Source of the DNA: Dehalococcoidia bacterium
GTDB taxonomy: Bacteria; Chloroflexota; Dehalococcoidia; Lucifugimonadales; UBA3495
Length of the DNA: 64,000 nt
Assembly: GCA_022823505.1 (NCBI GenBank)
Contig: JAJEIA010000058.1
Coordinates: forward strand, 29,770-93,769
Reading direction: 5' to 3'
In this document: positions 51,666 through 58,381 of the stretch, piece by piece
How positions within the stretch are numbered: the stretch's first letter is position 1
Layout: every line of letters begins with the position of its first letter
Translations under genes and position numbers: made by a program
The notes under the pieces: model-generated
What the model was told of the DNA's origin: nothing
What the model saw: only the letters and a program-made list of their open reading frames with translations
Database searches by the model: none

Positions 51666-51998
51666 ATGACAACCACAACACTGGAAACCATCACACCGCG
51701 CGAACCGGTCGTACCTCAGCGGCCGACGGAGAGCAAGGAAGAAATCAAGCTGGGACTACGCGACTACTCAGCCCGCTCGAAACTGCTTCGTAACAACCGC
51801 AGTGAGCTGACGGCCAGATTCCCTGACCAGTGGATCGCCCTGGGCGACAACTGGCGATTGGTTGTAGGAGATACGCATGATGACATTCTGGTCAAACTCA
51901 AAGAATGCGGTGCGTATTCGCCACATTCGGTAGTCCTTTGGTTGGAAACCAACCCGCCTAAGCGCATTCCGACCGTATGGCGGAAGCGCAAGGGATGA
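51666..51998 (+). CDS. DUF5678-like small protein
   Basis: 110 aa; FPDQWIALGDNWRLVVGDTHDDILVKLKECGAYSPHSVVLWLETNPP resembles the DUF5678 WIAVxG...G pattern. Confidence 0.6.
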   Translation: MTTTTLETITPREPVVPQRPTESKEEIKLGLRDYSARSKLLRNNRSELTARFPDQWIALGDNWRLVVGDTHDDILVKLKECGAYSPHSVVLWLETNPPKRIPTVWRKRKG

Positions 51999-52402
51999 TC
52001 GCTGGCTATTTCACCAGCGATGGTCTTCCCTGGGTAGGTTGTGATTTGTTGCTGCCGAGATTCGGTTTAAAGGCGCCGGTGACTTTTCTGATTGATACCG
52101 GATCTGACACCACTATTTTGCATCCCGCCGACGGACGCACATTACGCTGTCCGTTTGACTTGCTCGAAAATCCGGCGGAGTTCATCGGTGTGGGCGGCAC
52201 ATTGCACTACTACTTTGAGCCGGCCGTGCTTTCGTTTGACGATAGCGACGGCGGGACCTGGGAGTTTGAGATCGACATTTCTATCGCCAAACCCGGCCCC
52301 CTCACCGACGGCTTGGATTCGCTGCTGGGTCGCGATGTGCTGAACCAGATGCGCATGGATTACGATTTCCCGAGGAGCCGGCTGGCACTACACCAGGACT
52401 GA
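51977..52402 (+). CDS. Retropepsin-like aspartic protease
   Basis: VTFLIDTGSDTTILHPAD catalytic DTG and LLGRDVL C-terminal motif; overlaps preceding gene by 22 nt. Confidence 0.75.
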   Translation: MAEAQGMIAGYFTSDGLPWVGCDLLLPRFGLKAPVTFLIDTGSDTTILHPADGRTLRCPFDLLENPAEFIGVGGTLHYYFEPAVLSFDDSDGGTWEFEIDISIAKPGPLTDGLDSLLGRDVLNQMRMDYDFPRSRLALHQD

Positions 52403-54904: not shown

Positions 54905-55429
54905 ATGGCGGATTCCGTATCCCCCGACTACCGATTTTGTCCCCGCTGCGGTGACCCGCTGGGGACCAGGGTTCGCGGCGGGCTGCCGAGGCCGTCGTGC
55001 GAGCGGTGCGGGTTTGTGCATTTCCGCAATCCGGCCGTGGGGGTTGCGGTGGTCGTAATCGACAAGGACGGAAGGGTCCTGCTGGGCCGGCGGTCGGCCG
55101 GCGGGAACGTGGGAGAGTGGTGCATTCCCTGCGGTTATGTCGAGTGGGGCGAAGACATACGGGAAGCGGCGCGTCGGGAATTCTCGGAGGAGACGGGACT
55201 GGAAGTGCAGATTGGCGAAGTGTGCGCGGTGCATTCCAACTTTCACAATGCTGCCTCGCTGACGGTCGGGGTGTGGTTCTACGCGACGATCGTAGGAGGC
55301 ACCGCGGCAGCGTCGGATGACCTGGACCGCGTCGGCTGGTTTGCGCCGGAGGATCCCCCGGAGCCACTGGCATTTCCGACGGACCGGTTGGTGCTGGGGG
55401 ACCTTGCCAGCAAGCGAGTAACCACCTGA
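54905..55429 (+). CDS. NUDIX hydrolase with N-terminal zinc ribbon
   Basis: CPRCGDPL...CERCGFVHF; GYVEWGEDIREAARREFSEETGLEVQIGE Nudix box. Confidence 0.93.
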   Translation: MADSVSPDYRFCPRCGDPLGTRVRGGLPRPSCERCGFVHFRNPAVGVAVVVIDKDGRVLLGRRSAGGNVGEWCIPCGYVEWGEDIREAARREFSEETGLEVQIGEVCAVHSNFHNAASLTVGVWFYATIVGGTAAASDDLDRVGWFAPEDPPEPLAFPTDRLVLGDLASKRVTT

Positions 55430-56604
55430 TGGCGAAACGCTCAGTCATCATCCAGCATCATCCGGTGGAGACGCTGGGCGGCAACTTCACTGGAATCTTG
55501 AAGCAAGCAGGATTCGATCTGCACCACGTGCGGGTGTGCGACGGCGCACCTGACTTTGCCCAGTTCGACGCGCCGGACCTGTCCGAGGTTGACCTCGTGG
55601 TGGCGTTGGGGGGACCGATGTCCGCCAACGACAACTACCCCGCGCTGATCCAGGAGACGGCTTACCTGCGCGCCGCCGCCACGGGTGACGTGGGCAATCG
55701 GCCGGTAACGCCCGTGGTTGGCATCTGCCTGGGGGCGCAATTGCTGTCGCGGGCGTTGGGGGGAGCCGTTGCGCCGACCGGCGGGTACCAGTTCGGGTTG
55801 CGCAAGATCGACGTCACAGATGCGGGCTCATCCGACCCCGTTTTCGGCAAGATTGAGGTCCCGCTGGTGCCCACGCTGCATGGGGAGCAGTTCACCGTGC
55901 CGGCGGGCGGGACGCTGCTGGCCCAGGGAACGATGCTGCGACGGGACGGAGGTTACGTGCGGTTCCCGATGGCTTTCAGGTACGGGCTATCATACGGCTT
56001 TCAGTTCGAGCCTCAGTTGACATGGGATGAACTGTGCGTTTGGAACCGCGAGTTGGCGAGCGACTATGAGCTGATGGGCGACCGATTTGATCCCAGGGAA
56101 GAGGCGGCCCGCAACCTGCGGGAATTCACCGCCTTCGCGCCGTATCACGAGGCGCAGATGGGACGCATGCTGGAAGCGCTGCTGGCGCAAGCGGAGATGA
56201 TTTCACCGGACCCTAGAGAAGTAGAGCGGGACCCCGCATCATCACATCTTCTTCGCCGAGGGCGAGTGATCGCACATACCATACGACCACTATCCGGGAG
56301 AGGCACGGATATTCATTACCGAATGGAGGGCACGCGCTTCGCTGTAACTTGGGGCCACACGCAATTCTCGATCACTGAAAAGGATATTCGGCTGGTGCTT
56401 AACGAGTTTTTCGGCAATGTCGGCGAGTGGCAACAGCTTGGCGCGAGCATGACCGATCCCCCAACCCATGGCATGGGCCGCTTCGTCCAGGGAAATATCC
56501 GGGGACTAACCCCACGCCACGCATCGGCTATCGCAGCTATCATGGTCAACGAAGGATATTTGCAGTATCGCGGCACCAGTCCGATTGAACTCAAACGAGT
56601 TTGA
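55429..56604 (+). CDS. Class I glutamine amidotransferase-like protein with extra C-terminal domain
   Basis: N-terminal GATase fold with GICLGAQLLSRALGG; FQFEPQ where FQFHPE is expected; about 120 aa C-terminal segment of unknown family. Confidence 0.75.
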   Translation: MAKRSVIIQHHPVETLGGNFTGILKQAGFDLHHVRVCDGAPDFAQFDAPDLSEVDLVVALGGPMSANDNYPALIQETAYLRAAATGDVGNRPVTPVVGICLGAQLLSRALGGAVAPTGGYQFGLRKIDVTDAGSSDPVFGKIEVPLVPTLHGEQFTVPAGGTLLAQGTMLRRDGGYVRFPMAFRYGLSYGFQFEPQLTWDELCVWNRELASDYELMGDRFDPREEAARNLREFTAFAPYHEAQMGRMLEALLAQAEMISPDPREVERDPASSHLLRRGRVIAHTIRPLSGRGTDIHYRMEGTRFAVTWGHTQFSITEKDIRLVLNEFFGNVGEWQQLGASMTDPPTHGMGRFVQGNIRGLTPRHASAIAAIMVNEGYLQYRGTSPIELKRV

Positions 56605-56723
56605 CTTGCAGCAGGGCGAATAGTAATCTTCGTGCGTGCTTGGCGCGGGCAGCGCCGCAGGCGGCGTGCTGTGCGTCGACTCACTGAATCGAGAAAAACA
56701 TATCGCATCGGAGGTATCACACC

Positions 56724-57470
56724 ATGGCTTACCAAGGGATGACGGCCGAACACATCTGGGTGGAAGGACACAACGGCGACGCGATCAACGCTTACCTGGC
56801 GCGGCCGCTGGGAGCAGGCCCGTTTGGCGCGGTGATGCTGTTCCACCACATGCCCGGCTGGGACGAAGCGAGCAAGGAAATGGCACGCAAGTTTGCTCAC
56901 AACGGCTACATCGCCATCATGCCGAACCTGCACTACCGACAGGGCCACGACGACCCGGTCGCCAACAGCAACAGCATCCGCGAGGCGGGCGGCATGCCTG
57001 ACGACCGCACCCTGGGCGACGCTGAGGGCGCCATCAGCTACCTGCGCCACCTGTCCAACTACAACGGCAAGGTGGGTATCATCGGGTTCTGCTCCGGCGG
57101 ACGCCAGGTTTTCCTGGCCGCGTGCAAGCTCAAGGGTCTCAGCGCGGCGGTGGACTGCTGGGGCGGCGGCGTGACCCCGCGGGACAGCGAGCCTCCCACC
57201 GCGGCCATGCCCCACGCGCCCATCGAGTTCGTCAACGACCTGTCGTGTCCGCTGCTGGGGATCTTTGGCGAGGATGACGCGCGACCTTCAGTGGACGAGG
57301 TGAAGGCCACCGACGCCGCGATCAAGGCCGCCGGCAAGTCCTGGGAGTACGAGATCTACCCTAACGCCGGCCACGGGTTCGTCGCGGTAGACCGGCCCAG
57401 CTACGCGGTGGAAGCGTCCAACGCCGCCTGGCCGCGCATCTTCGAGTTCTACGCGCAGCACCTGTCGTAG
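56724..57470 (+). CDS. Dienelactone hydrolase family protein
   Basis: VMLFHHMPGWDEASKEMARKFAHNGYIAIMPNL; GFCSGGRQVFLAACK; AGHGFV. Confidence 0.92.
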   Translation: MAYQGMTAEHIWVEGHNGDAINAYLARPLGAGPFGAVMLFHHMPGWDEASKEMARKFAHNGYIAIMPNLHYRQGHDDPVANSNSIREAGGMPDDRTLGDAEGAISYLRHLSNYNGKVGIIGFCSGGRQVFLAACKLKGLSAAVDCWGGGVTPRDSEPPTAAMPHAPIEFVNDLSCPLLGIFGEDDARPSVDEVKATDAAIKAAGKSWEYEIYPNAGHGFVAVDRPSYAVEASNAAWPRIFEFYAQHLS

Positions 57471-57499: not shown

Positions 57500-57522
57500 G
57501 GGGCGGGTCGTGGACCCGCCCC
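57500..57522. repeat. GC-rich palindrome, left of TA module
   Basis: GGGGCGGGTC gtg GACCCGCCCC. Confidence 0.85.
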
Positions 57523-57842
57523 TAAATGATGGCTACCTCCCGGAGTTCTCCCGGTCTGATCGTGGCTATGGCAGCGTTGATCTCATCAGCTCCGGCCCGG
57601 ATTGACCGCCAGTTGTTGTGCATCAATACCACTACCGACAAGTTGCGACCGGATAGATTCTGCTGGTGCCTAAGGCGCTTGTCGCAGGTTAGGAACAACT
57701 CGTAACCCGCTTCCTCTGCCAGGGTCAACAGATCGCCATCGGGCAGACGATCCCACCCGAGTTGCCCGGCCGCGTGAACGGTATGTCCAGGTAGATACGC
57801 TCGTAAAGGTCTCGGGACGCTGTGATCAAGAAGAATGAGCAT
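57522..57842 (-). CDS. DUF5615 PIN-like toxin
   Basis: MLILLDHSVPRPLRAYLPGHTVHAAGQLGWDRLPDGDLLTLAEEAGYELFLTCDKRLRHQQNL. Confidence 0.82.
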   Translation of the reverse strand: MLILLDHSVPRPLRAYLPGHTVHAAGQLGWDRLPDGDLLTLAEEAGYELFLTCDKRLRHQQNLSGRNLSVVVLMHNNWRSIRAGADEINAAIATIRPGELREVAII

Positions 57843-58350
57843 AAGCAGCCGGGCTTCGGGTGCGCAAAGCTTCCGCCTCATGCTCCAGCACGGCTACAAC
57901 TTTGGCCCGGTCCGCATCGTACCAATCCACGAATTCGTCAATCGTAGACCCGGCCGCCAATTCCGAGTACATGGCCCACAGCGGCAAGCGACTCTTGGCG
58001 AATGTCCACGCTCCGCTCACCTTGCCGGCCACTCGCTCCACCACCGCGCAAATGCCCCAATCGGGTGTCTCATCGCCAGTGGGTGAAAACGCCGGAATCG
58101 GAGTGATTTCTCCCGGGCCATCGGGACGGATGAGGAGGTCTACGCGAAATTCTTCGGCTTCGTATTCCAAAATCGACGCGGCTCGCCCAGCATCCAAGCC
58201 AAATTTATCGGCGAAACCGCGGACGTTACCGCCGGAGGCCAGGTGCTCATAGAGTCGGTACAAGGGGACTCCCGTTCCCTTGAATACCCATTGCCCCCCG
58301 TTTGGCAGCGCCTGCAGTTCTACCTCGGGACAGTGCTGCCAGTTCGCCAT
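57826..58350 (-). CDS. Tandem DUF433-like antitoxin
   Basis: Two internal copies: GGQWVFKGTGVPLYRLYEHLASGGNVRGFADKFGLDAGRAASILEYEAEEFR and SGAWTFAKSRLPLWAMYSELAAGSTIDEFVDWYDADRAKVVAVLEHEAEALR; 17-nt overlap with toxin. Confidence 0.78.
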   Translation of the reverse strand: MANWQHCPEVELQALPNGGQWVFKGTGVPLYRLYEHLASGGNVRGFADKFGLDAGRAASILEYEAEEFRVDLLIRPDGPGEITPIPAFSPTGDETPDWGICAVVERVAGKVSGAWTFAKSRLPLWAMYSELAAGSTIDEFVDWYDADRAKVVAVLEHEAEALRTRSPAAYAHSS

Positions 58351-58381
58351 CGTAGGGCCTCCCTGCACTCGTCATCTGCGA

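Follow-up and report, generated by a model that had tools for sequence, protein, structure and literature searches.

The window, a 64,000-nucleotide stretch of a Dehalococcoidia contig, carries an open reading frame in which a class-I-GATase-like core is continuous with a C-terminal domain that its relatives lack (Table 1). The frame is real, and both of its odd features, the altered catalytic site of the core and the unfamiliar C-terminus, are real yet unrelated to each other. The locus documents a domain fusion by insertion whose pre-insertion state survives in 13 congeners. It further brings to light a small-protein family, rare and unnamed, that spans several phyla and is enriched beside restriction and other defence genes, as well as a GATase-like clade that has kept the catalytic Cys and lost the His and Glu.

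The genes on either side are syntenic: the nearest relatives keep the order amidohydrolase, NUDIX, GATase, dienelactone hydrolase (DLH), and in the closest of them the DLH protein is 98% and the NUDIX protein 90% identical. The neighbours of the GATase-like gene are an amidohydrolase, NUDIX and DLH, and a synthase domain was not seen among them. Adjoining the DLH gene on the reverse strand, overlapping DUF433 and DUF5615 genes (57522-58368) resemble a toxin-antitoxin-like pair; the DUF433 protein has two matching stretches and the DUF5615 match is weak, just under the cut-off. On the forward strand, positions 51977-52402 encode a small retropepsin-like aspartyl protease with a DTGSDTT motif, which matches gag-asp_proteas, Asp_protease_2 and RVP, all near their cut-offs.

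Table 1. Positions in the window of the fused reading frame, its parts and the flanking genes
Feature	Position	Strand	Basis
NUDIX hydrolase, syntenic left flank	54905..55429	+	PF00293, 9e-22
Fused ORF, 391 aa	55429-56604	+	ORF call
Class-I-GATase-like core, aa ~1-256	55429..56194	+	PF00117, 28.1 bits; 75-88% identity to 13 congeners
Inserted foreign DNA, ~404 bp, 55% GC	56195..56598	+	Comparison with five congeners
Linker in frame, aa ~257-279, from read-through of donor upstream DNA	56195..56265	+	
Possible internal GTG start of the inserted gene (VIAHTIRPLSGRG), GAGGG before it	56266..56268	+	Inference
Inserted small-protein domain, aa ~282-391	56272..56601	+	Eight stand-alone homologues; AlphaFold2 model
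Conserved promoter-like element GTTTGAC...ATAGTAA, upstream of the DLH gene	56599..56637	+	Five congeners
Dienelactone hydrolase (DLH) family gene, syntenic right flank	56724..57470	+	PF01738, 7e-40

A GATase-like core with an altered catalytic site

The core scores above the 22.8-bit cut-off of the Pfam GATase model over aa 50-133. Over aa 2-256 it also resembles two NCBIfam amidotransferase models, PRK07053 and PRK06490 (E ~1e-25 to 1e-27), though at scores far under their equivalog cut-offs. With class I glutamine amidotransferases (PF00117; PRK07053, PRK06490; PDB 9xfs, 3m3p) it shares core sequence similarity, a conserved LHGE region and the Cys elbow, which is intact as GICLGAQ (Cys100). 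Unlike those enzymes, in which the His-x-Glu site conforms to xFHPE, the fused protein and its clade read QFEPQ (Glu194, Gln196) instead of QFHPE, so that both the His and the Glu of the triad are replaced.

This alteration, already pointed out in a sequence-only reading of the locus, extends well beyond the source genome. The core was matched in 26 of the 60 genomes of the relatives set, the source genome counted, and 24 relatives, comprising all 13 congeners and 11 others, are ~55-88% identical to it. Every one of the 24 retains the Cys elbow together with QFEPQ, and the missing His and Glu are therefore an old trait of the clade. A more distant protein of the same order (32-38% identity) reads FLFHMEYT at this site, His present. 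Since the whole clade lacks both the triad His and the triad Glu, the class I mechanism argues against a conventional glutaminase, and the GATase-like part, its Cys notwithstanding, is probably a non-glutaminase. We found no report in the literature of a GATase clade lacking the His, nor of a GATase fusion like the present one.

The inserted DNA and its junctions

The C-terminal segment is absent from all 24 GATase relatives; those that were translated stop at ~258 aa, mostly with a common ...LL.QAGL ending. From the GATase start to the DLH start the source genome measures 1295 bp, against 915-953 bp in five congeners, and the insert stands in place of the GATase stop codon and a spacer of 31-53 bp. 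It runs up to GTTTGAC, which opens a conserved element (the closest copies read GTTTGACTTGCAGCAGGGC.GATAGTAATCTTC). The distance from this element to the DLH start is 107-126 bp in the five congeners and 125 bp in the source genome. The TGA stop of the fused ORF falls within this GTTTGAC. Read by eye, the element is probably the DLH promoter; a generic promoter scan did not call it.

The composition of the insert sets it apart from its surroundings. At 55.2%, where the window averages 64.5% (sd 3.4), its GC content lies in the lowest 0.9% of 404-bp windows, in keeping with the lower GC that the sequence-only reading had remarked on in this part of the DNA. By codon position the inserted domain has a GC of 0.587/0.477/0.587, compared with 0.678/0.447/0.798 in the GATase core. 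The frame of the insert is open beyond chance, being equalled in 0.5% of shuffles, and the linker has no counterpart in the GATase relatives or in the stand-alone family described below.

We found no second copy or paralogue of the insert elsewhere in the source genome. Searching 60 relatives for the insert DNA gave short chance-like matches only, and no relative of the C-terminal domain was found in those 60 relatives or in 400 sampled genomes of the phylum. Rfam returned no match for the insert, and a repeat search produced only short, chance-like pairs. Weak matches in CoA-transferase genes of the relatives were likewise chance-like. An origin as an integron cassette was ruled out by eye, as no attC-like site follows the ORF.

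Could the junctions have been made by the assembly or by binning, joining foreign DNA to a GATase gene? The draft genome comprises 164 contigs, its contamination being estimated at 7%, and the insert differs in composition. Both flanks, however, are syntenic within one contig, and it would take two misjoins within 404 bp of each other, one at the GATase end and one at the conserved element; the GATase is, moreover, single-copy in the genome. Given the two joins that it would take, each at conserved sequence, we regard an artefact as very unlikely. The proposal that the C-terminal part is a separate gene fused by assembly error thus holds for the separate gene and fails, as far as can be told, for the error.

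A small-protein family found beside defence genes

As a single query, the C-terminus returned nothing usable from Pfam, NCBIfam, PHROGs, PADLOC, PDB, phages, plasmids, GTDB or IMG/VR, and its description as unrecognised stands, with no match in Pfam or NCBIfam. PADLOC models matched neither the inserted domain nor the full fused protein, and a weak match of the domain to phrog_22281 gave no lead. The family was recovered by means of a hand-made degenerate DNA pattern for [LF][ST]PRHASAIA, which matched 17 stretches, one IMG/VR contig and 16 genome stretches. Full-length homologues are encoded in eight of these (phmmer E 1e-21 to 1e-30), and all eight are stand-alone frames of 119-157 codons, which gives about 116-140 aa when counted from a start codon. 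They occur in Clostridium ganghwense, Alkalibaculum bacchi, C. folliculivorans, Anaeromicropila populeti, an Oscillibacter MAG, Telluribacter, a Euryarchaeota MAG and the IMG/VR contig, which places the family in Clostridia and Bacteroidota as well as in an archaeal MAG and a contig of IMG/VR.

All 17 invariant columns of the family alignment (A1) are kept in the inserted copy, in which the PRHASAIA motif occupies aa 362-369 of the fused ORF. The insert reaches to within one or two residues of where family members usually terminate, and the inserted gene is therefore nearly complete. No family member exceeds a curated Pfam cut-off or matches NCBIfam, and PHROGs matches are weak (best E 0.0013); the family is undescribed and without a model in these three collections. 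It is also rare: of 391 genomes in the class to which C. ganghwense belongs, two carry it, in one case as a truncated copy. A truncated copy in that class (L090:1513-1713) has 66 aa and lacks the PRHAS half.

The stand-alone genes lie in distinctive company. At one locus (L068, in Alkalibaculum) two C5 DNA methylases and a HaeIII-type endonuclease (PF09556, E 2e-128) come ahead of the family gene, all on one strand; at another (L080) the family gene lies upstream of a GmrSD_N/HEC-05 protein (E 4e-104), in the same orientation. A CARF protein (L073), an HNH nuclease (L071) and a PD-T4-6/mad6-like kinase (L075) are found near the gene at three further loci. For comparison we used as controls the nine loci that share only the DNA pattern. 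At a threshold of E<=1e-20, 79 PADLOC models were matched among the 37 ORFs of the family loci and none among 48 control ORFs; the association, however, is drawn from eight loci, and the kinase and CARF models are broad. Strong PADLOC matches occur at five of the eight family loci and none of the nine controls (Fisher p ~0.009, hand calculation, with controls that are not taxon-matched).

This context suggests that the small protein, in its usual setting, may regulate restriction and other defence operons or serve them as a DNA-binding accessory, and its function is open to direct testing. Two reports (PMC9122601, PMC9122589) describe defence-linked winged-helix DNA-binding regulators, BrxR of the WYL family, that adjoin diverse defence systems. 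The family resembles BrxR, as described there, in lying near diverse defence systems, its own regulatory role being suggested by context; unlike BrxR, the small protein has no detected WYL domain, and its size is ~110 aa. Given the BrxR/WYL precedent, a regulatory role for the small protein would be reasonable.

Predicted fold and origin of the fusion

AlphaFold2, run on the small-protein domain with nine sequences, returned a model with pLDDT 93 and pTM 0.87. The predicted order is four strands forming a beta meander, a helix, a short strand, two helices and two strands, and the elements after the meander are H42-52, a short strand at 60-61, H74-81, H87-99, E103-106 and E112-115. The second half of the domain accordingly has the winged-helix topology H1-S1-H2-H3-S2-S3, with PRHASAIA opening the third helix. 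In the PDB the best look-alikes are the winged helices of HxlR, PerR and Z-alpha, with Z-alpha TM-scores of 0.67-0.71 in the best cases when normalised by target, but every match is below significance (best E 0.08). The H-S-H-H-S-S topology is common to these proteins and the inserted domain; unlike them, the domain has an extra N-terminal beta meander and its own invariant PRHASAIA, and there is no significant sequence or fold match between them. A viral structure library yielded nothing significant for the domain. In a model of the full-length fusion, informative for the C-domain only as the GATase part was folded without aligned relatives, the C-domain has block-mean pLDDT of at least 88 and the linker (aa 254-272) is below 50.

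With no significant fold-search match, the winged-helix assignment rests mainly on topology. On this model the small protein probably binds nucleic acid through a winged helix, with PRHASAIA as the putative recognition helix. The earlier suggestion of a nucleic-acid-binding module gains from the predicted topology and the genomic context, while the fold-search matches stay below significance.

We consider it likely that the ORF arose recently and by chance, through fusion of a defence-associated protein that probably binds nucleic acid with a probably non-glutaminase GATase paralogue. The stop codon of a conserved GATase-like gene of ~258 aa, together with some spacer, was replaced by ~404 bp of foreign, lower-GC DNA (about 56195-56598); the insertion reaches up to the promoter-like element that is conserved ahead of the next gene and brought in one nearly complete small gene that elsewhere stands alone. 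The small protein would then be produced fused to the C-terminal end of the GATase-like protein. Among the genomes searched, the fusion is unique to the source genome: no other GATase fusion with the same C-terminus was found among the 24 relatives or the eight homologues. The fused sensor or adaptor that the sequence-only reading suggested finds no support as an evolved fusion: the relatives lack the C-terminal part, and the data indicate a separate foreign gene joined by recent insertion.

By our estimate, very roughly 1/10 insertions would yield an open junction in frame by chance (1/3 frames x ~0.3, for 24 open codons), and the fusion alone is therefore no evidence of selection. Against chance, the frame is open and every invariant residue is kept, which also fits a selected fusion. 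In such a fusion the winged-helix-like domain would direct a GATase-like sensor to DNA, as a new ligand-responsive regulator. The frame open over the junction, the retained invariant residues, the flexible ~25-aa linker predicted between the domains and the probably non-catalytic core agree with that proposal, but the fusion occurs in one genome only, its open junction is expected by chance at the rate just given and the family stands alone elsewhere, and we find a functional fusion unlikely. The broader idea, quite unlikely in our judgement, is of a new winged-helix family of defence accessories or regulators, moving between phyla as a single gene and captured here on a catalytically dead GATase to give a DNA-binding sensor.

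Under the preferred reading of a chance fusion, the small protein may possibly also be made alone from the internal GTG. A bicistronic insertion would go further, the protein being produced mainly in stand-alone form from this start and the fusion being an incidental read-through product. We hold this to be possible but doubtful: the start codon is GTG rather than ATG, the Shine-Dalgarno spacing is short (3-4 nt) and a simple scan of the insert found no promoter-like site, yet the GTG lies at the start position of the stand-alone members, with GAGGG just upstream.
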